A stretch of 54,073 nucleotides of DNA from Nitrososphaera sp. Lineage in GTDB: Archaea; Thermoproteota; Nitrososphaeria; Nitrososphaerales; Nitrososphaeraceae. This document shows, one piece after another, positions 6,776-19,608 of this stretch. The DNA is taken from the NCBI GenBank assembly GCA_029263715.1, contig JAJUFP010000011.1, positions 1 through 54,073 on the forward strand. The letters run 5' to 3'. The position numbers and the translations under genes are program-made. How positions within the stretch are numbered: the stretch's first letter is position 1; the number at the start of each line of letters is the position of its first letter. The notes under the pieces are model-generated. The model saw nothing but the letters and a program-made list of their open reading frames with translations. It ran no database searches and was not told the origin of the DNA.

Positions 6776-6976
6776 CGTTACAGTAGCTGAGAATCAGTGT
6801 TTAAAAAACTTGTCTAACCTCATCATATTCTGAATTATCTGCATCAGGAAATTATCAGGTCGGCCTTGCAACAATCTGTAACTGCGGACTGCTGTTACCG
6901 CGGTTACAGGCCGGGCCAGTACATCTGGTCTTTTAGTCGTTGTCCAGAATCATTGCTAGGTGCCATAATAGTAAGA

Positions 6977-7624
6977 ATGTCATTTGGTAACAAATGGGTA
7001 AAACCCCAAGGAGAAAGCGTAGGACACAGGTTGATGGAAGGTATCAAGCCACAAGCACCGCTGAAACCAAGGATTGAAGAGGCGCAAAAGAAGCTGCAGA
7101 TGCAGATATCGAAACTTGACTCCATATCTGGCCGCATGCATGAAAAGGATCAGGTTATCTTCAAGCGCATAGTGCTGGCGATGCAAAGCCACGACGCACA
7201 GCACGCCAGAGTGTTGTCCGGCGAGCTGTCCCAGATCCGCAAGATGAGCAAGATGATAAACTCTGCCAAGCTTGCACTAGAACAGATACAGTTGAGGCTG
7301 AACACCATAACAGAATTGGGAGACGTTGTAGTGACCTTGAGCCCGGCCATGTCCGTGATAAAGGGACTTCAAAGCGGCCTTTCAGGCATGATGCCAGAAG
7401 CAGACCAGTCCTTTGCACAGATCTCAGACCTGCTTGGCAACATCATGACAGACTCGGGACAGATTCCAAACGGCGAGATAGGCGGCTTTACTGCTGTCAA
7501 CGACGACACGGCAAGGATAATGGAAGAGGCAAGCGCGATAGTAGAGATGAACATGAAAAGCAAGTTCCCAGACCTGCCGTCAAGCACTTCTTCTTCAAGA
7601 ATCCCAGAGGCCTCGGGCTTTTAG
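6977..7624 (+). CDS. cdvB: ESCRT-III-like cell division protein (CdvB family)
   Basis: About 215 residues from ATG 6977 (MSFGNKWVKP). The open frame continues upstream to 6866, but that part is Cys-rich and unlike the family. The body is long amphipathic helices: a basic first helix pair (KPRIEEAQKKLQMQISKLDS, then RIVLAMQSHDAQHARVLSGE), followed by ELGDVVVTLSPAMSVIKGLQ. This is the Snf7/Vps2 layout of archaeal CdvB proteins, which polymerise at the membrane during division. The C-terminus is Ser-rich (SSTSSSRIPEASGF) and acidic upstream, as expected for a regulatory tail. No cdvA or cdvC lies in the window. A paralogue, not necessarily the main CdvB, since this lineage usually has several. 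Confidence 0.82.
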   Translation: MSFGNKWVKPQGESVGHRLMEGIKPQAPLKPRIEEAQKKLQMQISKLDSISGRMHEKDQVIFKRIVLAMQSHDAQHARVLSGELSQIRKMSKMINSAKLALEQIQLRLNTITELGDVVVTLSPAMSVIKGLQSGLSGMMPEADQSFAQISDLLGNIMTDSGQIPNGEIGGFTAVNDDTARIMEEASAIVEMNMKSKFPDLPSSTSSSRIPEASGF

Positions 7625-7636
7625 GGCCCCTCTTTT

Positions 7637-7966
7637 TTACTTTTTTCCAGAAATCTTCTGCAGTTGCTTTTTGATCCTTGAGATCGTGGGGTAGCTGTAG
7701 CCCTTCTCTCTGTACGTGCGGATCATTGTCTTCCAGTTGTTGAGGCGCCACCTGGCCTGCTCTGGGCTTAGAAGGTGCGTCTCCGCCTTGATCATGCTTT
7801 TCCTTCCAGGCATCAGATATCCGCCTGTAGCAGCGGTATACCGGCTGTACGCAAAGCGCAGGCCAAACAGAATCTCTTCTTGAGGAAGCGAGTTTAGATA
7901 CATGGCCAGCTCCCTGCCCTGGTCTTCGGTCAGCCCGAGTTTGAATGCAAATTCCCTTGCAGGCAC
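7637..7966 (-). CDS. Unknown 109-residue protein next to bioF
   Basis: 109 residues from a GTG start (MPAREFAFKLGLTEDQ, ending SRIKKQLQKISGKK), mostly helical, basic at the C-terminus, without Cys pairs or membrane segments. It lies immediately downstream of bioF on the same strand. It has its own AT-rich TATA-like stretch (about 7987-7996), preceded directly by a perfect 30-base palindrome that overlaps the bioF stop codon. It may be a DNA- or RNA-binding protein, but no fold is recognised. Its position makes it a candidate for biotin-related function or regulation. Confidence 0.6.
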   Translation of the reverse strand: MPAREFAFKLGLTEDQGRELAMYLNSLPQEEILFGLRFAYSRYTAATGGYLMPGRKSMIKAETHLLSPEQARWRLNNWKTMIRTYREKGYSYPTISRIKKQLQKISGKK

Positions 7967-7996
7967 ACCAGCCTTTAGCCGGGCGTACTAATTAAA

Positions 7997-8026
7997 CATA
8001 TTTCTAAACTCGAGTTTAGAAATATG
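7997..8026. promoter_or_regulatory. Perfect 30-base palindrome, copy 1 of a four-copy family
   Basis: Both halves (7997-8011 and 8012-8026) are exact reverse complements; the core half-site is TTTCTAAACTC. It covers the last codons and stop of bioF and ends just upstream of the probable promoter of the 109-residue gene. Related copies are at 10204, 18931 and 19135. It could be an operator for a dimeric regulator, a recombination site or an RNA hairpin at the bioF 3' end. Confidence 0.75.
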
Positions 8027-9185
8027 TCAGGCCCAGCTTCTTGCCAGACTTTTCAAACGCGGCCAAGGCCAGGTCAAGGTGTTTCTGCGTATGCATCGAC
8101 GTCAGAGACACGCGGAGCCGCGCAGATCCTTTCCTGACCGTCGGGTATCGCACTGCCTGCGCAAAAACTCCCTGCTCTAAAAGATCCTGCGAAAGCATGA
8201 CGGCTTTTCTTTCGTCTCCCACAAGCACAGGAATTATCTGGCTTGCAGAATTGCCCAGTGAAAAGCCTAGTTTTTCCATTCCCCGCCGGAAATAATCGAT
8301 GTTGCGGTACAGTCTTTTCTGCAGGTTTCCTTTTTTTGCTATTGGTATTGCAGCCGTGGCCGCAGCGCAGAGATGATCAGGCAGGGCGGAGGTGTATATG
8401 AACTGCCTTGAGGTGTTGATCAAGAGTTCCCGGATTTTTGCGCTTGCTGCGACGTAGCCACCAAAGCAGCCAAGCCCCTTGCTCATGCTGCTGATGTGCA
8501 CGTCTGCCTCAACGCCAAAACTAGCAGGCGTTCCTGAGAAATTCGGGCCTATCACAAAGTCACCGTGGGCATCGTCAACGACGGTTATTGCATCATGCTT
8601 TTCTGCTACTGCACAGATTTCTTTTAGATTGGCGGCATCGCCATCCATGCTGAAAATGCCCTCGGTTACGACGATTTTTCTCCCTGCCGTTTGTCGCAAA
8701 AGATCCTCAAGGCGGGCAACATCGTTGTGGGCAAAAACCTTGATTTCGGCACCGCTTAGCCGGCAGGCGTCTATTATGCTGGCATGGTTCAACTCATCGC
8801 TAAAGATAGTCGAGTTCTTGTCCGCCATCGCGGTTATCACGCCCAGGTTTGCCGCATACCCTGTCGGGCAAACCAGGGCCGACTCTGTCCTGCGGTGAGC
8901 AGCCAAAAGCTCCTCAAGTTTCAGGATTTTGGGGTCATTGCCAGCTATGAGCCGCGAGCTGCACTGCGAGACCTGTCTTAACGCCCTGATGGTTTTTGCT
9001 ATCACACGCTTGTTCTGCGAAAGCCCCAGGTAGTCGTTTGAGCATAGGTGAATTGCTTGCCGGCCGTTGACAATTGCAACGGGACCCCGGACATCCACGG
9101 CCTTCAGCCTGCGGTACAGGTTGCTTTTTTCCAGCGATGCTAGTCTTTCGTCTATAAAATCAGTCTTGTGCTGCTTTGAGACCAA
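8016..9185 (-). CDS. bioF: 8-amino-7-oxononanoate synthase
   Basis: 389 residues. This PLP enzyme joins pimeloyl thioester and alanine to make 8-amino-7-oxononanoate (KAPA), the first committed ring-assembly step of biotin synthesis. Signatures are SNDYLGLSQN at the N-terminus, VDDAHGDFVIG (Asp/His at the cofactor), and the Schiff-base Lys in SMSKGLGCFGGYVAAS. The sister enzyme 2-amino-3-ketobutyrate CoA ligase looks alike, but overlap with bioB decides for BioF. Its start overlaps the end of bioB by 26 bases, implying one transcript. Confidence 0.93.
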   Translation of the reverse strand: MVSKQHKTDFIDERLASLEKSNLYRRLKAVDVRGPVAIVNGRQAIHLCSNDYLGLSQNKRVIAKTIRALRQVSQCSSRLIAGNDPKILKLEELLAAHRRTESALVCPTGYAANLGVITAMADKNSTIFSDELNHASIIDACRLSGAEIKVFAHNDVARLEDLLRQTAGRKIVVTEGIFSMDGDAANLKEICAVAEKHDAITVVDDAHGDFVIGPNFSGTPASFGVEADVHISSMSKGLGCFGGYVAASAKIRELLINTSRQFIYTSALPDHLCAAATAAIPIAKKGNLQKRLYRNIDYFRRGMEKLGFSLGNSASQIIPVLVGDERKAVMLSQDLLEQGVFAQAVRYPTVRKGSARLRVSLTSMHTQKHLDLALAAFEKSGKKLGLTYF

Positions 9186-10140
9186 TCTCTCTTATCATCG
9201 CTATATCCTTGTTGGGCTCGTTTCCGCCAGTGGTCAGGTAGCCGCCGGTGATAATGCCGTTGGCGCCGGCCTTCAGGGCAAGCCTGCCCTGGTCGTCCAG
9301 GTGGACTTCTCGGCCGCCGGCTATCTTTAGTATGGTCTTTGGAATGATAAAGCGCCAGACAGCTATGGTCTTGATGGCATCCATGGGCTCTATGGGCTCG
9401 TAGCCAGCCAGGGGCGTGCCCTCCCTTCCAATGAGGATGTTGATTGGAACCTCGTCTGGGTTCAAAGAAGCAATGGAAAATGCAAGTTCAAGTCTTTGTT
9501 TGACAGTCTCGCCCATCCCGATGATGCCGCCGCAGCACAGTTCAAGGCCTGCCTCCTTTACAATCCTGGCCGTGTTTACTCTGTCGGCAAAGTCATGGGT
9601 CGTGCATATCCTAGAAAAGTAACTTTCAGCTGCTTCCAGGTTGTGGTTGTAACGCTTGACTCCCAGCTCTTTGAGCCTCCTTGCCCGCTCAAGGGTGGTA
9701 AATCCAAGGGAGACGTTTACTTCAGTTCCAACCCGTCTTTTGACCTCGGTTATCGTCTCGCAGATCTGCTCAAAGTCCTTGTCTGGTGCGGCCCTGTACG
9801 CGCAGACAAGGCAGAAACTGGTTGCGCCGGTTTCTTTGGCGTGCATGGCCTGCTCGACTACTACTTCCTTTGGCAAAAGCGGGTACTTGTTAACGCCTGT
9901 CTCGTAAAACGTGGACTGGGCACAAAACGAGCAGTCTTCGGGGCATCTGCCGGACTTGGCATTGAGCAGTGCTTCAACATCCACCACATCGCCGTTGAAC
10001 CTGCGGGTGATGGTGTTGGCACACTCGGCAAGGGTCATGATGTCCTTTGTCGCAATCAGCCTTTCGGCCTCTTCAAAGGTTATCCTGCCTCCGTCCAGCA
10101 CCTTTTGCATGCAGCTGACGATAAATGCCGAATCTGACAA
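9160..10140 (-). CDS. bioB: Biotin synthase (radical SAM)
   Basis: 326 residues from a TTG start. BioB inserts sulfur into dethiobiotin to form biotin. The radical-SAM cluster motif CPEDCSFC (CxxxCxxC) is near residue 55, followed by NHNLEAAESYF and CCGGIIGMGET, which belong to the second-cluster and SAM-binding regions of the family. It is the first gene of a bioB-bioF unit. A TATA-like stretch about 25-35 bases upstream is framed by a BirA-type half-site pair, and the second copy of the palindrome lies farther upstream. Confidence 0.96.
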   Translation of the reverse strand: MSDSAFIVSCMQKVLDGGRITFEEAERLIATKDIMTLAECANTITRRFNGDVVDVEALLNAKSGRCPEDCSFCAQSTFYETGVNKYPLLPKEVVVEQAMHAKETGATSFCLVCAYRAAPDKDFEQICETITEVKRRVGTEVNVSLGFTTLERARRLKELGVKRYNHNLEAAESYFSRICTTHDFADRVNTARIVKEAGLELCCGGIIGMGETVKQRLELAFSIASLNPDEVPINILIGREGTPLAGYEPIEPMDAIKTIAVWRFIIPKTILKIAGGREVHLDDQGRLALKAGANGIITGGYLTTGGNEPNKDIAMIREIGLKAAQD

Positions 10141-10153
10141 TTTGGAATCGATG

Positions 10154-10186
10154 CTGTCAACTGGTAATTAAAACTTTGGTTTACAA
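10154..10186 (-). promoter_or_regulatory. BirA-like biotin operator overlapping the bioB TATA box
   Basis: GGTTTACAA at 10178-10186 is an exact copy of the conserved BirA half-site. The opposite half at 10154-10162 (CTGTCAACT) matches TTGTAAACC at 6 of 9 positions, and the spacer is exactly 15 bases. The spacer contains GTAATTAAAAC, the likely bioB TATA box 24-35 bases before its TTG start. Binding here would block TBP. BirA-type signals of this design are known from bacteria and some archaea; the second half is weak, so this remains an inference. Confidence 0.55.
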
Positions 10187-10203
10187 CTAGCGCTTTTCAG
10201 GTA

Positions 10204-10231
10204 ATGTTTCTAAATTCGAGTTTAGAAATAT
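10204..10231. promoter_or_regulatory. Palindrome, copy 2, upstream of bioB
   Basis: A 28-base dyad centred between 10217 and 10218, with two mismatched pairs and core half-site TTTCTAAATTC. It lies in the divergent region between bioB and the beta-propeller gene, about 30 bases upstream of the bioB TATA box. It belongs to the same family as the copies at 7997, 18931 and 19135. Confidence 0.7.
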
Positions 10232-10300
10232 CTCTTGAAAATATAGAAAATTTACTTTAGGCAGTATTGCAACCAACTGCACCGTAATCCTGTATCAATA

Positions 10301-11329
10301 ATGTTTTATAGATTCTTGTCCATACTAACCCAGATGCAGGCTGGAATCATTTCTGTCGTTGTTGCGTTAGTTCTAGTCGCAAGCATCTTTTCAATATCGC
10401 AGTCAAGTCCAGTCAAGGCAGAATCTTCCACCGTCAACTTTGTAACAAGGTTTGATGCTACAAAAGGCGAGCTTCCAGAAGGACTGGCTGTTTTCCTTGG
10501 GCGGAAATACGTAAGCATGGCGCCGCAGGTTCAGGCCTACAAGATAGACACCGATGGAAAGATGTCGCCGTACGGCATGTGGCCAAAAGCAAATCCCGGC
10601 GAAGCCTTCATGGTCGGCATGACCTTTGACAGTAAAAAGAACTTGTACGCAGCCCTACCATCATTTAACGAGCAGGTCAAGACTGGCGTATACAAAGTCT
10701 CGTCTGCAACCGACGAAGCCACATTGTTTGCAACGCACCCGGACATGAAATTCCCAAACGATGTCATATTTGGCAAGAAAGGCCGCATGTTCATATCCGA
10801 TAGTTTTGATGGAAGCATCTTTGTTGTAGAAAAAGACGGCACGGTCGGCAAGTGGCTTTCAAGCGACCTTTTGAAGGCAAACAGTACGAATTGTTCTGAA
10901 ACAAGGCTTGGCTTTGACATCGGCGCCAACGGACTTGCCTACTACAAAAACAATATCTATGTTGCCAATACCCTGGCCGCAACTATCCTAAAGATCCCGA
11001 TCAATGAAGACGGGTCCGCCGGAAACCCGGAGATATTCTTGGGTCCGGATTGCAGCAGTCTGGTTGGAATCGATGGAATTACAGTAGACAGGGACGGCGA
11101 CATTTTTGCCGCCATCAACCTGCAAGACAAGATAGTCAGGATTTCGTCAGATAAAGAACTAACCGTCGTTGCCGAAAAACAGGGAATGGACTTTCCGGCC
11201 AGCATAGAACTGGCAAGGCATACCGGCAAATATTCCCTTTATGTCACGAACTTTGGCTTTGTAAATGCAAACAAGGGTCTGGTTCCTGATACTGGAATAA
11301 TCAGGATAAGCGTAAACAACTATCAATAA
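10301..11329 (+). CDS. Exported beta-propeller (SMP-30/NHL-like) protein
   Basis: 342 residues. The N-terminus holds one hydrophobic segment (about 15-35, IISVVVALVLVASIFSISQS), a signal peptide or anchor. The rest is blade-like repeats: GMTFDSKKNLYAALPSF, FPNDVIFGKKGRMFISDSFD, IDGITVDRDGDIFAAINLQD and FPASIELARHTGKYSLYVTN. This is the pattern of six-bladed SMP-30/gluconolactonase or NHL propellers. The enzymatic activity, if any, is unknown. ATG 10301 is used; ATG 10334 is a shorter option. It shares a divergent region with bioB, but a role in biotin metabolism is not evident. Confidence 0.75.
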   Translation: MFYRFLSILTQMQAGIISVVVALVLVASIFSISQSSPVKAESSTVNFVTRFDATKGELPEGLAVFLGRKYVSMAPQVQAYKIDTDGKMSPYGMWPKANPGEAFMVGMTFDSKKNLYAALPSFNEQVKTGVYKVSSATDEATLFATHPDMKFPNDVIFGKKGRMFISDSFDGSIFVVEKDGTVGKWLSSDLLKANSTNCSETRLGFDIGANGLAYYKNNIYVANTLAATILKIPINEDGSAGNPEIFLGPDCSSLVGIDGITVDRDGDIFAAINLQDKIVRISSDKELTVVAEKQGMDFPASIELARHTGKYSLYVTNFGFVNANKGLVPDTGIIRISVNNYQ

Positions 11330-11628
11330 CTCGGCTTTTTTGGCCGTCCGGAGCGTGGGTTTTGGCCATGTTTTCTGGCAGTTTATGACCGCCAGATTTT
11401 CCGATGTACAAAGGCCCAGGAATCTGAAAACCGTCATAGCTTTTGGCAGACAGGACCGTTCAAAAAAGGACCGCTTTTTAGAATGTATGAAAATTAGCTC
11501 CGTTTTTTTACCTTTGATTTTGAGCCCTGACAGCATCGGTAGTTCAATAAAAACAGTCACCCTTTTTGAACGGCGGATTCCAATTTTTTGACCAACCGGC
11601 TGTTAAACCGTTCTAGGCAAAAAAGGCA
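11330..11628. repeat. Intergenic region with 14-base inverted arms before the recombinase
   Basis: About 300 bases without a convincing gene. CCGTTCAAAAAAGG at 11456-11469 and CCCTTTTTGAACGG at 11560-11573 are inverted copies with one mismatch and a 90-base spacer. The second arm lies about 55 bases before the recombinase start. Paired inverted sites next to a serine recombinase suggest an accessory or crossover site, or an operator for its own gene. This reading is inference. Confidence 0.45.
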
Positions 11629-12221
11629 ATGAAGTATGCCTTTGCGTACCTGCGGGTGAGCACCGAAGAGCAGACGGTCCAGAACCAGAAACTTGCCCTT
11701 GAAAAGTGGGCGCAGGAAAGCAACTACCAGATACTGGACTTTTTTGAAGATTCGGCCACCAGCGGCAGGATTCCGGCCACCCAAAGACGCGGCTTTCAGG
11801 ACATGCTGGAACTGGTCAGGACCGCGCCGGTTGATGCAATCCTGGTCTACGAATTATCCAGGGTGGGCAGAACCTTCTGGGACACCCTTGACGCTATAAA
11901 GGCCATTGAACAGTACGCGCCACTGATCTCCTGCTCCCCAAGGGAGTCTTTTCTTCAGACCACGGAGCCAAGCGTAAGAAAGCTGATGATTGGAATCCTG
12001 ACCTGGGTTGCAGAACGGGAGCGGGAGATGCTGGTGCAGAGGACCAAGGACGGCATGGTCCGGGCCAGAGCCGCCGGCAAGAGAATCGGCAGGCCGCAGA
12101 AACCCATCGACAAAAACCGGCTGATCTCGCTTCTTGCAGAAGGCCAGCCAAAGGCAAGGATTGCCAAGTCCTTGGGAGTTTCAAAAGCCACGCTGTACAA
12201 GGAGCTTCGGCAGGTGGCCGG

Positions 12222-12225
<4 letters not shown>
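11629..12225 (+). CDS. Serine site-specific recombinase (resolvase/invertase family)
   Basis: 198 residues. The N-terminal catalytic domain starts MKYAFAYLRVSTEEQTVQNQ, with the nucleophilic Ser in YLRVSTEEQ; the Arg-rich VYELSRVGRTF and EREREMLVQRTKDGM follow. After a GRPQKP linker the C-terminus is a Hin-like helix-turn-helix (LLAEGQPKARIAKSLGVSKA). This is the order of resolvases and invertases. It is not the IS607 transposase order, where the DNA-binding part comes first, and no tnpB is adjacent. The stop overlaps the bioA stop from the other strand. It sits inside the biotin island and could have shaped it. Confidence 0.9.
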
Positions 12226-14816
<2,591 letters not shown>

Positions 14817-14868
14817 GGCTTTTGAAAACAGAGTAGGTTTATTAAATCTGATTGTAAATATAAGTAAA

Positions 14869-15291
14869 ATGTCAAAGGTAGCAGTATCTTTAGGCCTGCT
14901 TATAGCATCGCTTGTACTTTTGATAATTTACGGAGCAGACGCCTCGGTGGCATCCTCAAGCCCCAACCACAGGGGCTTTTTGCCGCTTGACGAGTCGGTG
15001 AGGGGAGCAGGGTTTGGAGGCGGCGCCGTGGTGATGTCGATAATCGCTTTTGTCATAGGCCGAAAAGAGCCTTCATACATAATCACTATCCTGCTGTTTG
15101 TAAACGGCGGCCTTATCATTGCTGGAATGCTGGCCCTGATAGGCCAGGGAGCTCTGGCCTCGGAGAACGCGGAAGGCGCGATGCGCACCATTGGCACAAC
15201 GATGGGCCTTGGCGGAATACTCGTGGGACTTGGCGCATGGAAGGCTGCCAGTGACCGGCGCGTCGTTGGAAAGGAACAAGCCCAGAGATAA
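14869..15291 (+). CDS. Four-helix membrane protein of unknown function
   Basis: 140 residues with four hydrophobic segments, at about 5-24 (VSLGLLIASLVLLIIYGADA), 47-64 (AGFGGGAVVMSIIAFVIG), 70-92 (YIITILLFVNGGLIIAGM) and 105-125 (GTTMGLGGILVGLGAWKA), and a short basic C-terminus. No motif suggests transport or catalysis. The next small gene starts at the base after its stop, so the two are very likely translated together. Confidence 0.7.
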   Translation: MSKVAVSLGLLIASLVLLIIYGADASVASSSPNHRGFLPLDESVRGAGFGGGAVVMSIIAFVIGRKEPSYIITILLFVNGGLIIAGMLALIGQGALASENAEGAMRTIGTTMGLGGILVGLGAWKAASDRRVVGKEQAQR

Positions 15292-15414
15292 TTGACCAAG
15301 TGCACAAGATGCGGCATTGAAGCAGACAAAACGTACAGCTGCATACATACCGACGACAAAGAGACCTGCGTTGAATGCTATCAAGAGATACACTGGCTCC
15401 TTAACAACCAGTGA
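15292..15414 (+). CDS. 40-residue zinc-finger mini-protein
   Basis: A TTG start directly abuts the stop of the membrane protein gene. The product MTKCTRCGIEADKTYSCIHT is followed by a second half with CVECYQEIHW, giving two CxxC pairs plus extra Cys and His. This makes a compact zinc knuckle. Strict coupling, Cys spacing and the absence of other frames support a real gene, although it is very short. A function with the upstream membrane protein is likely but unknown. Confidence 0.6.
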   Translation: MTKCTRCGIEADKTYSCIHTDDKETCVECYQEIHWLLNNQ

Positions 15415-15458
15415 ATCAAGATAACTTTTTTTAACGATACCAACGTTTTTCAAGTTAA

Positions 15459-16145
15459 TTGAAAGCAGTGATACTTGCCGGCGGCTATGGTAAGCGTCTC
15501 AAGCCGCTGACGGATGAAAAGCCAAAACCGATGATAGAGGTACTGGGCACTCCCATCATAGAGTGGCAGATAAAGTGGCTATCAAAACACGATATAAAGG
15601 AGTTCATCGTCTGCGTCGGCTACATGAAGGAGCACATCATCAACCATATCGGAAGCGGGGCCAAGTTTGGCGTCAAGGTCGGCTACGCCGTCGAAGAAGA
15701 GCCGCTTGGGACAGGGGGCGCCCTCAAGAACGCCGAAAGCCTGTTGTCTGGCCAGAACGATTTCTTTATGATAAACGGCGATATACTGACCAACCTGGAT
15801 CCAAACAAACTGCGGGACGGCGGCAGCTCCAACGCCATAGCCCTGGTACCCCTCAAGAGCCCGTACGGCGTCGTCGAGATTGGAGGCGACTCCAAGGTGC
15901 AGCGGTTTGTTGAAAAGCCCAGCATCCCAGACCGGTGGATAAACGCCGGAGTCTATCACTTTACCAAGGAAGTGTTTTCTTATCTGCCGGAGAACGGCAA
16001 CATCGAGGTAACCGCCCTGCCGGCCATGGCAAGGGATGGAAAGCTGCATGCAACAAAGTACGAGGACGTTTTCTGGCGCTCCATCGATTCCCACAAGGAC
16101 ATCGATGAGGCTGCCAGGGAGATCAGGGAAGAAAGCACGTCATGA
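15459..16145 (+). CDS. Sugar-phosphate nucleotidyltransferase
   Basis: 228 residues from a TTG start. MKAVILAGGYGKRLKPLTDE with KPKPMIEVLG is the nucleotide-binding signature of mannose-1-phosphate guanylyltransferase- and glucose-1-phosphate thymidylyltransferase-like enzymes. EEEPLGTGGALKNA, MINGDILTNLD (metal Asp) and VEKPSIPDRWINAGVY complete the NTP-transferase fold. The C-terminal beta-helix of longer members is absent. The product would be an NDP-sugar for glycans; the exact sugar cannot be told. Its last 4 bases overlap the next start (ATGA), so it heads an operon. Confidence 0.88.
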   Translation: MKAVILAGGYGKRLKPLTDEKPKPMIEVLGTPIIEWQIKWLSKHDIKEFIVCVGYMKEHIINHIGSGAKFGVKVGYAVEEEPLGTGGALKNAESLLSGQNDFFMINGDILTNLDPNKLRDGGSSNAIALVPLKSPYGVVEIGGDSKVQRFVEKPSIPDRWINAGVYHFTKEVFSYLPENGNIEVTALPAMARDGKLHATKYEDVFWRSIDSHKDIDEAAREIREESTS

Positions 16146-17104
16146 GGGTCGGCTACAGCCTCGGACCGCTGCTCTCAGCAGACGAGGTTCTCTCCTGCGC
16201 CAGGATGGCCGACGAACACAACGTTGACTCTATCTGGGTGCCAGAATCCTGGGGCAGGGAGTCCTTTGCAACGCTTGGAGCCGTCTCGCAGGTCACAAGG
16301 CGTGTCAGGCTTGGCACGTCCATAATCAGCATCTTTGCAAGGACGCCGGCCACCGTGGCCATGGGCGCAACAACCCTGGACATGCTCTCAGGTAGCAGGA
16401 CGGTAATAGGCCTTGGGACCAGCACCGAGGCCATAGTGGAAAACTGGCATGGAGTCAAGTTTGAGCAGCCAGCAACAAGGATGAGAGAATACGTGGAATG
16501 CCTCAAACTGATGCTGAGCGGCGAGAAGGTCAACTACAATGGCCGATTCTTCAAGGTAAGCAACTTTAAGATCCTGCACACGCCGCCAAGAAAGCATGTG
16601 CCGGTCTTTGTTGCAGCGGTAAACAAGAACATGGTATCGCTGGCATCAGAGCTGGCCGACGGCGTGATTTTCTACCTTCGCCCGCTAGACGAGTTAAAGA
16701 AAACCGTCGCCCAGCTGAGGTCAGGGCGCAAAGATTTTGAGGTGGCCCTTTCCCTTATCTGCGCGGTCTCTAACAAGGAGCCAGACAAGGCAAGGGAACG
16801 GGCCGCAAGAACGCTGGCGTTTTACATCGCGGTTGGCAAGTATTACAGCCGGTTTTTGGCAGAAAACGGGTTCAGAGACGAGGTGGGCCGGATAACAGAA
16901 GAGTACCGCAAGAACGGCGGCGACGCGGCAGGCCGGCAGGTCACCGACAGAATGCTTGAATCCCTGACTATTTGTGGATCGTCTGAAGAATGCATCAGGT
17001 CTTTAGAGAGGTTTGTATCGGCCGGGATAACGCTTCCAATCCTGCAGACAAACCCGGTATCCGACGCAGAAGGTTCATTTAGGGAAATGCTGTCAACCTT
17101 CTAG
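16142..17104 (+). CDS. LLM-class F420-dependent oxidoreductase
   Basis: 320 residues, (beta/alpha)8 luciferase-like fold. Visible are VGYSLGPLLSADEVLSCARM, DSIWVPESWGRESFATLGAV, VRLGTSIISIFARTPATVAM and VIGLGTSTEAIVENW, all typical of F420-using members such as methylene-tetrahydromethanopterin reductase. This lineage makes F420, so it is the probable cofactor. The substrate is unknown. It overlaps the nucleotidyltransferase by ATGA and is one base from the thiolase, so it may reduce an intermediate handled by the thiolase/DUF35 pair. Confidence 0.85.
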   Translation: MRVGYSLGPLLSADEVLSCARMADEHNVDSIWVPESWGRESFATLGAVSQVTRRVRLGTSIISIFARTPATVAMGATTLDMLSGSRTVIGLGTSTEAIVENWHGVKFEQPATRMREYVECLKLMLSGEKVNYNGRFFKVSNFKILHTPPRKHVPVFVAAVNKNMVSLASELADGVIFYLRPLDELKKTVAQLRSGRKDFEVALSLICAVSNKEPDKARERAARTLAFYIAVGKYYSRFLAENGFRDEVGRITEEYRKNGGDAAGRQVTDRMLESLTICGSSEECIRSLERFVSAGITLPILQTNPVSDAEGSFREMLSTF

Positions 17105-17105
17105 G

Positions 17106-18197
17106 TTGCGCAGGGTAGCTATCGCGGCATCTCAGACAGCCCGGTTCACCAAGACTTCTGAAAAATCGATATTTGAGCTGGCCTGCGAGCCCTGCATAGA
17201 CATTGTCAAGTCTGTCCGGGATATCGATGCAGTCCTGCTTTCCACCTGCTCAACTGAGCAGTACAGCTCCACCATTGTATCAGAGATGCTGGGCATCAAA
17301 CCCAAGATCTCGCATAGAATTGACAACCTCTGCAATTCTGGCACCAACGCCATCGCATCGGCCTATTCCATGATCGTTGCCGGCCTGTGCGATTCGGCCC
17401 TGGTAATTGGCGCAGAGAAATCCGACAGCAAAGGCAACCGCCTGGTCTGGGACATCACCCGGGGATCGTTTAACTTTCCAGTGCACTGGGCGGCCATGTT
17501 TGCAAAGGCCCACATGGGAAGGTTTGGCACTACAGAGCAGCAGATGGCCGCAGTCTCGGTCAAGAACCGCAAAAACGCAGCCAAAAACCCAAACGCGCTG
17601 TTCCGCAAGCCGGTGAGCCTTGAGGAAGTCATGAGCTCAAGAAGGATTGCAGATCCCATAAAACTGCTGGACTGCTCCCTTGCCTGCGACGGTGCCTCCG
17701 CCGTGCTCTTGCTCTCGGAGGAAAGGGCAAAGAAGGTTGAGAACCCGGTCTGGATCAACGGGATTGGTCAGCAGACAAACTCGGCAAGTTTTGCTGGCGC
17801 TGCAGAGAACCTCTCGGCCCTGGAGACGGCCAGCCGCGCGGCACACGACGTGTACAGGATGGCCGGCGTCAGGCCATCGGACATTGACGTGGCAGAGGTT
17901 CATGATGCGTTTACCATCCTTGAGATAATGGCGTACGAAGACCTTGGTTTTGCCAAGAAAGGCGAGGGTGGCAAGTATGCCGAGAAAAACGAGATAGCAG
18001 TAAACCCCCGTGGAGGCATACTTGGCTGCGGCCACCCCATCGGCGCTACCGGTGTTTCTCAGGTATCAGAGATAGCATGCCAGCTGGCCGGAACTGCCGG
18101 CAAAAGACAGGTCAAGGATTGCAGGACGGGTCTTGTGCACAACCTGGCAGCCGCCGGCTCGTCTGCAACAGTCATGGTCCTGGGTGTGCAGAAATGA
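17106..18197 (+). CDS. Thiolase (acetyl-CoA acetyltransferase / SCP-x type)
   Basis: 363 residues from a TTG start. The nucleophile Cys lies in RIDNLCNSGTNAIASAYSMI near residue 76, the His in EVHDAFTILE, and the C-terminal Cys/His pair in GGILGCGHPIGATGVSQ. These are the complete thiolase catalytic residues. The length is that of the short archaeal class that pairs with a DUF35 protein, which follows at once. It could condense acetyl-CoA for isoprenoids (with HMG-CoA synthase, not in this window) or act on another acyl-CoA. Confidence 0.9.
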   Translation: MRRVAIAASQTARFTKTSEKSIFELACEPCIDIVKSVRDIDAVLLSTCSTEQYSSTIVSEMLGIKPKISHRIDNLCNSGTNAIASAYSMIVAGLCDSALVIGAEKSDSKGNRLVWDITRGSFNFPVHWAAMFAKAHMGRFGTTEQQMAAVSVKNRKNAAKNPNALFRKPVSLEEVMSSRRIADPIKLLDCSLACDGASAVLLLSEERAKKVENPVWINGIGQQTNSASFAGAAENLSALETASRAAHDVYRMAGVRPSDIDVAEVHDAFTILEIMAYEDLGFAKKGEGGKYAEKNEIAVNPRGGILGCGHPIGATGVSQVSEIACQLAGTAGKRQVKDCRTGLVHNLAAAGSSATVMVLGVQK

Positions 18198-18532
18198 GAC
18201 AGTTTCTAGACTACATCAAGGCCGGCAGGTTCCGAGTCCCTGTATGCACCTCCTGCAGGACAAAGGCCTGGCCGCCGTCGCCGTACTGCCCAAAATGCCT
18301 CTCAAGGACAGCATTTCGAAAAGTCAAAACTACAGGCACGCTGCTAGAGTTTTCATCATCCCACGTCAGGGATCATGAAGGCCTTTTCGGCGTAGTCGAT
18401 ATGGATGGAATAAGGCTTGTGGGCTCTTTTGATCCTGATGCAAGCCTTTCTGTGGGCATGAAGGTAAGGATGTCAAGGTGCGGCGTCAGCGATGCAGGCA
18501 CGCCGTACTACTGGTTTGATGTCGTCAAATGA
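18194..18532 (+). CDS. DUF35 zinc-ribbon/OB-fold acyl-CoA-binding protein
   Basis: 112 residues from ATG 18194, overlapping the thiolase stop (ATGA). The N-terminus has a zinc ribbon (PVCTSCRTKAWPPSPYCPKC), followed by an OB-like strand region (TTGTLLEFSSSHVRDHE, FGVVDMDGIRLVGSF). DUF35 proteins sit on thiolases in archaea and bridge them to HMG-CoA synthase by holding the CoA intermediate. That this one binds the adjacent thiolase is a strong inference from coupling. Confidence 0.9.
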   Translation: MRQFLDYIKAGRFRVPVCTSCRTKAWPPSPYCPKCLSRTAFRKVKTTGTLLEFSSSHVRDHEGLFGVVDMDGIRLVGSFDPDASLSVGMKVRMSRCGVSDAGTPYYWFDVVK

Positions 18533-18571
18533 ATGCTTAATAAATGCAAGGGTGGTACAAATCCTGATCAT

Positions 18572-18931
18572 ATGAGTTATGACAGGTTTGTTGATGAGCG
18601 GCTCCTCACCAGCCGGGATGCCCTAAACCGCATGCAGATAAAGATGAAGCTGGTCGAGATCGACGAAGGTGCAAGGGATTTTTCCCAGCGTTTTGGCCGC
18701 CGTGTCCTTGTTAAGAAGGTGCTGCTTACCATCAAGTATACAGAGACCCAAGAAGTGGAGGAAAAAGAGCTGGACATCGAAGAGATAGAAAAGAGGATAA
18801 GAAAGGAGCGCCTGTACAGCTCGACAAACAGGTGGCTTGCCCCAAGTGACATCAAGAACAATTATGTGGTTGCAAACAAGCACCTGGATCTGCTGGCCGA
18901 TGCCCTGGCTTTGGACATAATAAAGGTATGA
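18572..18931 (+). CDS. Unknown 119-residue charged protein
   Basis: MSYDRFVDERLLTSRDALNR, then FSQRFGRRVLVKKVLLTIKY and a long acidic/basic helix (EEKELDIEEIEKRIRKERLY). No known motif. The frame opens at ATG 18533, right after the DUF35 stop. ATG 18572 is preferred because an AT-rich CTTAATAAAT lies about 25-30 bases before it, as for leaderless genes here. The stop codon coincides with the first base of palindrome copy 3. The function is unknown. Confidence 0.6.
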   Translation: MSYDRFVDERLLTSRDALNRMQIKMKLVEIDEGARDFSQRFGRRVLVKKVLLTIKYTETQEVEEKELDIEEIEKRIRKERLYSSTNRWLAPSDIKNNYVVANKHLDLLADALALDIIKV

Positions 18932-18958
18932 TGTTTCAAAACTCGAATTTAGAAAGAT
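18931..18958. promoter_or_regulatory. Palindrome, copy 3 (imperfect)
   Basis: A 28-base dyad centred between 18944 and 18945 with three mismatched pairs and left half-site TTTCAAAACTC. It starts at the last base of the upstream stop codon. It faces copy 4 across a 176-base gap that holds no recognised gene. Confidence 0.6.
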
Positions 18959-19049
18959 TACTGAAGAACACCTGGGACCCATGTCACCGTCGCTAATTCG
19001 ATAATCCAAAATCTGCAGTTATTGGGAGATGTTTACGCTTGTTTGATTA

Positions 19050-19070
19050 TGTATCTAATCATTAGATACA
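19050..19070. repeat. Perfect 9-base inverted repeat, 3-base loop
   Basis: TGTATCTAA and TTAGATACA enclose TCA. It sits midway between palindrome copies 3 and 4, in a gap between convergent genes. It may form a small hairpin at the end of both transcripts or be a second operator type. Nothing else is seen in 18959-19134. Confidence 0.55.
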
Positions 19071-19134
19071 TTTAGCAGACCAGACTGAAGCAGGCTTTGA
19101 AGGCTGTCGGTCATTTTTTGAATAACTCAACTTG

Positions 19135-19156
19135 TTTCAAAATTCGAATTTTGAAA
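19135..19156. promoter_or_regulatory. Palindrome, copy 4 (perfect 22-base core)
   Basis: The two 11-base halves (19135-19145 and 19146-19156; left half TTTCAAAATTC) are exact inverse copies. It lies three bases past the stop of the winged-helix gene on the minus strand. As with copies 1 and 3, it is within a few bases of a stop codon. Confidence 0.7.
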
Positions 19157-19158
19157 TG

Positions 19159-19608
19159 TCATGAGATGGGTCGCTTCATCCACACCCGGATGGTTTCAAC
19201 CCAGAACGCCACAGTTCCTGCCAGGGCAAAGCCAATGGCGTAGACATCCAGGTTGCTGTAATTCAAGACAAGGTAGGCAATCAGCATGGTGGTGAAAAAT
19301 GCCGCAAAAAACGAAAGCCGGGGGACCGCTACGCCACCGACATTGACAAAGGCCTGCAGCACGCCCACCTGGACCTTTTGAACGACATAATATCTTCCGT
19401 ACTCATCCTGGTCTATGAGTGCCAGAGTTACCAGTTTTTCTATGTGGTAGTTGGCCACGCTAGGGCTTGAGAACTCTAGGTCGCGCTGCACTTCCCTGAC
19501 GCCAACAGGCTCTTTTCTTTTTATCATGTACATGTAGACCTGAAGGGTCTTGCCCTTCAGCTGATCTTCTATCCGGTTTTCAGAACGGGAATCGCTGTCT
19601 TTGTCCAA
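19159..19608 (-). CDS. Membrane-associated winged-helix transcription regulator
   Basis: 149 residues from a TTG start. Residues about 20-75 form a winged helix (LQVYMYMIKRKEPVGVREVQ, FSSPSVANYHIEKLVTLALI, DEYGRYYVVQ). Two hydrophobic segments follow at about 100-120 (LSFFAAFFTTMLIAYLVLNY) and 125-142 (IGFALAGTVAFWVETIRV). A DNA-binding domain tied to the membrane suggests signal-coupled control. Target genes are unknown. Palindrome copies 3 and 4 are nearby but lie at its 3' side, not at its promoter. Confidence 0.8.
   Translation of the reverse strand: MDKDSDSRSENRIEDQLKGKTLQVYMYMIKRKEPVGVREVQRDLEFSSPSVANYHIEKLVTLALIDQDEYGRYYVVQKVQVGVLQAFVNVGGVAVPRLSFFAAFFTTMLIAYLVLNYSNLDVYAIGFALAGTVAFWVETIRVWMKRPIS

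Follow-up and report, generated by a model that had tools for sequence, protein, structure and literature searches.

We report a cluster of four palindromic DNA sites in a 54,073-nucleotide stretch of the archaeon Nitrososphaera sp. (contig JAJUFP010000011.1; "the window" denotes this whole stretch), and the occurrence of the same site in other archaea. The sites form a strict and conserved cluster of ammonia-oxidizing archaea (AOA) that is very probably bound by a protein and not specific to biotin metabolism, as judged from sequence comparison. Few strict palindromes grouped in one chromosomal region, as here, are a feature of centromere-like elements. Our best explanation, to which we give even odds, is that the cluster is such an element, which would be bound by a 109-amino-acid (109-aa) orphan protein encoded near it and would act in segregation or anchoring of the chromosome.

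The four sites are listed in Table 1 with the genes around them. A first-pass annotation of the window had reported four palindromes, their absence from the rest of the 54 kb, and their placement relative to bioB-bioF and to stop codons. All four were confirmed and their cores located, with 0.00-0.01 matches expected in the window from shuffled sequences, and their placement holds on the called open reading frames (ORFs). Copy 1, described there as a perfect 30-base palindrome, is perfect and in fact extends over 32 bases. When all 14 contigs of this genome (1,920,121 bases; completeness, 93.57%) were scanned, as had been suggested, with the motif TTTCNAAAYTCGARTTTNGAAA and up to three mismatches, exactly four matches were obtained, all inside one 11-kb segment of the window, so that the uniqueness of the copies extends from the window to the genome, and the matches form a single locus and not a random-looking scatter. 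The reversed pattern, used as a control, gave no match in this genome. An Rfam search of the window produced no match.

Site 1 overlaps the bioF stop codon (8016-8018). It also precedes the 109-aa gene, which follows bioF on the same strand and has its called start at 7966, by 35 bases, a relation that the first-pass annotation did not mention. Upstream of bioB, whose start is called at 10140, the core of site 2 begins at a distance of 67 bases. The core of site 3 begins 3 bases past the end (18931) of a gene for a 132-aa protein, and that of site 4, which is 201 bases from site 3, ends 3 bases short of the stop codon (19159) of a gene for a 149-aa protein. A second perfect inverted repeat (ATGTATCTAAT C ATTAGATACAT, window 19049-19071) is present between sites 3 and 4. 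The 149-aa protein (window 19159-19608) has, by eye, a winged helix-turn-helix start and a membrane end, with no Pfam match, and its gene adjoins sites in five loci of genus g1 and one of genus g3.

Table 1. Palindromic sites and genes near them in the window
Feature	Position	Strand	Remarks
Site 1	7996..8027	.	perfect 32-base palindrome; 22-base core 8001-8022
Site 2	10204..10231	.	core 10207-10228
Site 3	18931..18958	.	core 18934-18955; gap between two converging genes
Site 4	19132..19159	.	perfect core 19135-19156; same convergent gap as site 3
109-aa orphan protein	7637..7966	-	proposed site-binding protein; C-terminus KGYSYPTISRIKK
CdvB / ESCRT-III-like cell-division gene	6977..7624	+	converges on 109-aa gene
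bioF	8016..9185	-	neighbor of sites, not constant
bioB	9160..10140	-	neighbor of sites, not constant
Serine recombinase	11629-12225		lies among sites

Sites collected from relatives (248 non-redundant sites with at most two mismatches) give the 28-base consensus ATR-TTTCWAAAYTC/GARTTTWGAAA-YAT, which exceeds the 22-base core by ATR at either end and whose halves are ATRTTTCWAAAYTC and GARTTTWGAAAYAT. Because these sites were collected by using the motif, only free or mismatched positions are informative about the relation between half-sites. At positions 5, 6, and 9, the two halves were identical in.548,.722, and.669 of the 248 sites, against expected values of.480,.677, and.540. The halves are thus nearly independent, as would be expected if a dimeric protein binds the site; an RNA hairpin would need much stronger agreement.

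The sites avoid genes: among 271 sites that lie either inside a gene or between two called genes, seven are inside, in loci whose coding fraction is approximately 0.80 by ORF calls. They also show no promoter preference overall, occupying 132 of 612 tandem, 36 of 158 convergent, and 40 of 235 divergent gaps. When 16 of the 287 sites were left out of orientation counts for a missing neighbor, 51 of the 264 sites with two neighbors proved to be in convergent gaps, where a pure operator function would predict few; sites 3 and 4 of the window lie in such a gap. The 29 pairs of sites less than 130 bases apart, which are not independent of one another, have preferred spacings of about 60, 70-71, and 81-82 bases, suggestive of helical phasing.

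Within the same family as the window, 64 of 70 genomes carry the motif with at most two mismatches, mostly in two to four copies, compared with three of 70 for the reversed control. In a draw of 400 genomes from the class, the motif was found with at most one mismatch in 255 (161 of the 220 that are at least 90% complete), and its reversed form in three; all 255 carriers belong to families f1, f2, f3, and f5 of one order. A single cluster holds all matches at this stringency in 18 of 18 genomes. Genome G009 has an additional match with two mismatches, 445 kb away and inside an ORF, which is probably due to chance and was left out. The loci read (L035-L174) include some genomes twice, and the 287 sites correspond to 265 distinct contexts. 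AmoA was found in all 23 single-contig carriers tested. When 84,980 named species genomes were scanned for the 109-aa protein, 220 stretches were obtained, of which the best 80 were retained; the genera in their titles are Nitrososphaera, Nitrosocosmicus, Nitrosopolaris, Nitrosopumilus, Nitrosopelagicus, Nitrosotalea, Nitrosotenuis, Cenarchaeum, and Nitrosocaldus, besides unnamed Thaumarchaeota and Nitrososphaerales. From AmoA and these genus names, the range of motif and protein looks like that of AOA, the motif search having covered cellular genomes of the class.

The chromosomal region that carries the sites is constant, and its genes change. In f1, sites are found around bioB-bioF and the 109-aa gene and where a thiolase operon ends; no site precedes bioB in the loci read from f1 genera g4, g5, and g9. 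In Nitrosopumilus-type genomes (f2), the sites are away from bio genes, between the genes that we label F041, F040, F042, and F045 and a PNPox-like gene, beside the ribosomal L6-S8 genes. Nitrosotalea-type loci have sites flanking the 109-aa/CdvB gene pair, and in f5 sites lie between L6 and the 109-aa gene. Even where bioF and bioB are nearby in f2, f3, and f5 (loci L128, L147, L167, L066, and L173), no site is found before bioB. The link to biotin is lineage-specific, and the sites resemble a biotin switch less than a place of chromosome anchoring or segregation. Of two expectations in the first-pass annotation, the operator of a dimeric regulator agrees with the half-site statistics as far as a dimeric protein is concerned, and is not supported as a biotin operator; and the sites recur in relatives in the same chromosomal region, next to the same bio genes in some lineages only.

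Two observations concern DNA close to the biotin genes. The window segment 15459-18532 encodes nucleotidyltransferase, luciferase-like monooxygenase, thiolase, and zf-ChsH2-like proteins, and such genes are near biotin genes in many f1 loci; a connection to a route toward a pimelate precursor is only a guess. In genome G026 (L050:9700-19900), bioB and the serine recombinase gene are separated by approximately 10 kb of ORFs for which the loci read offer few relatives, and one exact site is inside a called ORF there. This segment may be an inserted mobile element.

Relative to the best match to Cdc6, the cluster lies at a distance of 0.459 ± 0.019 of the genome (23 single-contig genomes; range.397-.486). 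Two control genes gave.202 ±.068 (amoA) and.366 ±.084 (small-subunit (SSU) ribosomal RNA, 22 genomes). For SSU ribosomal RNA, the first listed copy was used, which in G009 is at.082, the others being at.436 and.485. Eight of 24 genomes have two or three Cdc6 matches, of which the best-scoring was taken, and G154 (six contigs) was dropped. A single origin has been mapped in N. maritimus, according to the part of the source consulted (PMC4010727), and its placement at Cdc6 is our assumption.

We located the replication terminus by TA skew at fourfold-degenerate sites, corrected for gene direction and compared with 200 permutations; raw skew was too noisy for this purpose. The switch in TA skew was placed at 746 kb in G113 (sites at 703-707 kb), 449 kb in G042 (sites at 396-407 kb), and approximately 700 kb in G076 (sites at 634-639 kb), and in none of the three did any of 200 permutations do as well. 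For G076, a coarse fit gave 0.45 of the genome (sites at 0.452), and the finer local fit at about 700 kb is 62-67 kb from the sites, with 656-692 kb unsampled. GC skew, a weaker signal with mixed outcomes, switched at 761 kb in G113, at 497 kb in G042 (equaled by four of 200 permutations, and opposite in sign to G113), and at 632 kb in G076 (52 of 200, not significant). In G008, whose sites are at 0.603 of the genome, the corrected TA skew has a broad optimum spanning 0.6-0.8 (best 0.70) that does not place the terminus, and the terminus result therefore rests on G113, G042, and G076. In these three genomes, the cluster is proximal to the terminus, about 40-67 kb from the TA switch. As a separate observation, loci L225-L230 of G113, a Nitrosopumilus-type genome, display very strong fourfold-site TA strand asymmetry (approximately 736-772 kb). 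The switch there is sharp, and the antipode of Cdc6 lies about 78 kb from it.

The 109-aa protein was detected in 250 of the 400 class genomes (168 of the 220 at least 90% complete), only in f1, f2, f3, and f5. By a hand count that takes the two draws as the same 400 genomes, 233 have motif and protein, 17 the protein only (four of these with the motif at two mismatches), 22 the motif only, and 128 neither; many of the misses are incomplete genomes. An alignment of 57 sequences has 23 invariant columns, nine of which are in GYSYPTIxRIKK near the C-terminus, and by our reading of sequence and helices the C-terminus looks like a helix-turn-helix. A confident AlphaFold model consists of helices only (predicted local distance difference test (pLDDT), 90.9; predicted template modeling score (pTM), 0.54). 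Searches found no Pfam match better than E = 0.019, no significant NCBIfam match, no match among PDB sequences, and no PDB fold at E ≤ 0.001.

Of 102 109-aa genes, 51 are preceded within 200 bases by a site with at most three mismatches, 43 of the 51 at 20-59 bases, and by called starts 38 of the 65 sites preceding this gene are at 31-38 bases. Because a site stands before the gene in many lineages, these positions suggest autoregulation in f1, f3, and f5. Sixty of the 80 named 109-aa loci have a site in the flanking DNA examined; the nearest is at a median distance of 47 bases, within 150 bases in 37 and within 3 kb in 58, with a maximum of 7.2 kb. In ten Nitrosopumilus-type single-contig genomes, the nearest site is roughly 11-14 kb from the gene. 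Residue 96 is S in most sequences. It is H in six Nitrosocaldus-type rows, where A occupies motif position 6 in 0.11 of the half-sites, and Y in six Nitrosocosmicus-type rows, where A does so in 0.54; the H and Y sets each hold one genome twice, and locus L045 was dropped. The covariation of protein and motif is weak, in that it comprises two independent shifts and some genomes with S vary too.

Next to the 109-aa gene is a gene of the CdvB family. A phmmer search with window 6965-7624 retrieved PDB entries 9s97 ("Cell division protein B2," E = 4.8e-37) and 9s9j ("CdvB," E = 1.4e-19). Pfam Snf7 was matched at E ≤ 1 by eight of ten family members, with a best value of 5.8e-07; the value of 0.06 for the gene in the window is below cut-off. 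In 64 of the named loci, the sequence extends at least 2.5 kb past the 109-aa gene. A CdvB-family gene is present within that distance in 56 of these, and in all 56 the two genes are on opposite strands. The CdvB of N. maritimus is known to polymerize (PMC3684127) and may be a different paralogue.

The site is also present on small circular elements. Among the 2.9 million contigs of IMG/VR, exact copies of the motif were found in ten, all of 4.1-4.4 kb, and a profile of a 127-aa protein that they share extended the set to 34 contigs (4.0-4.6 kb; L255-L264 and L265-L295), all 34 with direct terminal repeats. Eleven of the 34 carry the site, namely the original ten with exact copies and one with a single mismatch; in the remaining 23, even the best match has at least five mismatches. 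One clade has the site in a convergent gap and another has it in a divergent gap, and its distribution over the tree is scattered. The family is filed as viruses in IMG/VR and has no relatives in the libraries tried: a search with eight proteins produced a single weak match, to a PHROG without assigned function, and one protein tested had no match among 50,697 phage records. The 127-aa protein had no copy in 400 genomes of the order, a search that had no positive control and so shows little. If the hosts are ammonia oxidizers, such a plug-in site would be explained more readily by a host protein that maintains the elements than by regulation of genes of the host.

From these observations, we infer the following mechanism. 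A homodimeric DNA-binding protein, most likely the 109-aa protein, would bind each 28-base site as dimers, and dimers bound at neighboring sites would cooperate. The resulting complex could mark the terminus-proximal region for segregation, for chromosome folding, or for attachment near the Cdv (ESCRT-III) machinery. In a broader version that we put forward tentatively and hold to be less likely than not, the cluster would be part of an undescribed AOA-wide anchoring system with a new protein family, coupled to Cdv and lacking a ParA-type motor, and the 4-kb circular viruses or plasmids would have borrowed the site for maintenance or hitch-hiking.

Several points weigh against a centromere-like cluster bound by the 109-aa protein. 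The co-occurrence of motif and protein is largely shared ancestry, and so supports the link without proving it. G062 (98% complete) and G056 (97% complete) have sites and no detected 109-aa gene, also after a 19-kb stretch of G062 was checked; half of the 109-aa genes have no upstream site, 20 of the 80 named loci have no site with at most two mismatches in the flanking DNA examined, and eight of the 64 loci have no CdvB gene nearby. The protein model has a pTM of 0.54 and no fold match. The skew position comes from three relatives and not from the window's own genome, and proximity to the terminus may be inherited; inheritance may explain part of the constancy, because SSU ribosomal RNA and amoA also keep a fairly stable distance from Cdc6. 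The share of 11 in 34 circular elements may be too high, because the profile was built from ten site carriers. Known chromosomal parS sites are near the origin. Finally, no ParA-like partner was seen close to the sites in ten genomes searched with PF13614. This profile exceeds its cut-off in all ten, with longer matches in G175, G000, G113, G042, and G007 and only partial ones in G076, G128, G115, G155, and G136, where they cover at most 128 of 177 positions in G136 and 39-41 in the other four, so that no full-length ParA-type protein was seen in these five; the nearest match on a contig shared with sites is 29 kb away (G136, 39 of 177 positions), and elsewhere matches are on other contigs or at least 75 kb away. 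Another partition system elsewhere in the genome is possible.

The main rival is a purely local regulatory role, which we regard as rather unlikely: the sites would be ordinary operators of a local transcription factor, whether the 109-aa protein or another, that regulates its own gene and neighbors such as bioB in Nitrososphaera or the zinc-ribbon gene F040 in Nitrosopumilus, and their clustering would reflect a small local regulon. The sites before half of the 109-aa genes agree with this explanation, as do the regular distances to other genes (some genomes counted twice): of 34 sites with bioB as the downstream neighbor, 30 precede it by 34-78 bases, and of 54 sites before F040, 28 are 91-93 bases and 25 are 152-175 bases away from it. 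However, convergent gaps hold sites as often as other gaps, the neighboring genes differ between families as the region stays the same, and there is no other site in the window's genome (at most three mismatches) or in the 18 genomes (at most one). RNA hairpins acting at transcript ends, which the first-pass annotation had offered as another possibility, are very improbable. Of the four copies in the window, three reach or almost reach a stop codon, and compared with shuffled sequences copies 1 and 2 fold better than nearly all (z = -6.0 and -2.5), copy 4 less clearly (z = -1.7); yet copy 3 folds no better (z = 0.25), the sites are often upstream of genes, and the near-independence of the half-sites points away from base pairing.

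In another explanation, which we hold to be improbable, the palindromes would be dif-like or Ter-like sites that resolve chromosome dimers or end replication. Some phages use dif and carry one copy of it, as the small circular elements here carry one copy of the site, and the cluster is near the terminus, with the weaker GC signal of G076 switching at the sites themselves, albeit equaled by 52 of 200 permutations. A need for such sites would follow from the reported lack of xerA in Thaumarchaea (Cortez et al. 2010; PMC2958812, consulted in part). The offset of about 40-67 kb from the TA switch in all three genomes speaks against dif and fork-trap readings, either of which is expected at the switch; moreover, several copies in one chromosome would recombine, the symmetric center gives no direction, and a serine recombinase is not common to all carriers (tyrosine recombinases were not searched for). 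That the sites are crossover points of the serine recombinase encoded among them, another proposal of the first-pass annotation, is scarcely credible. The recombinase looks domesticated: it is conserved in f1 (56 of 62 genomes at E ≤ 1e-30) and is 66-80% identical to that of the window in six f1 sequences aligned. However, it usually adjoins bioA, and within the order it is confined to f1 at this threshold, being absent from the f2, f3, and f5 genomes drawn, where the motif is equally strict; more distant matches occur in seven genomes of f19, f21, and f22. The sites thus also differ from res sites of a serine resolvase, whose cognate recombinase would accompany every carrier.

A strict site and a candidate binder, usually beside a CdvB gene, in this abundant group make it possible to test how AOA separate their chromosomes, and a cis-element shared by chromosomes and small circular elements might be of use in vectors for these archaea. 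No such site is described in the titles and abstract openings that our searches of open-license PubMed Central papers listed.

Among known systems, bacterial ParB-parS resembles the AOA cluster in having few strict palindromes in one region, and its binding protein is encoded nearby, as the candidate binder is here; however, parS is 16 bp and near the origin, whereas the sites here are near the terminus, with no ParB match seen. The matS sites of E. coli, bound by MatP, are palindromes of the terminus region that connect the chromosome with the division machinery; they are shorter and spread over about 800 kb, in contrast to one to five copies within about 22 kb. BirA and BioR operators likewise include a palindrome before bioB in some lineages, but here the association with the bioB promoter is not conserved (g4, g5, and g9, and the f2, f3, and f5 loci). 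SegAB of Sulfolobales, as described in parts of three sources (PMC12284271, PMC11381335, and PMC5120986), is alike in its small archaeal site-specific protein, palindromes clustered near and upstream of its own gene, and role in the chromosome. Its SegB motif, TCTAGASTCTAGA (13 bp; PMC12284271), differs from the consensus reported here, and most of its sites are inside genes, at positions throughout the chromosome, and are bound by a ribbon-helix-helix protein with a ParA-type partner; here a 28-bp site is almost only intergenic and at one locus, the model is all-helical, and no partner was seen close by. No gene for a SegA/ParA-type ATPase adjoins the candidate binder in the ten genomes searched with PF13614, SegB itself not having been searched for. 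AspA, of the AspA-ParB-ParA system of pNOB8, is a 93-aa protein that binds a 23-bp palindrome upstream of its own gene, and according to the part of the source consulted (PMC5120986) it has a winged-helix fold and is encoded beside ParB and ParA. The 109-aa protein has no sequence or fold match and no ParB or ParA neighbors in the loci read, and its predicted helices-only model, with no PDB match at E ≤ 0.001, would not be of the AspA type. Although the defining sequence and fold features tested differ, SegB, AspA, ParB-parS, and MatP-matS would, by analogy, be the closest to the AOA cluster in working mode.

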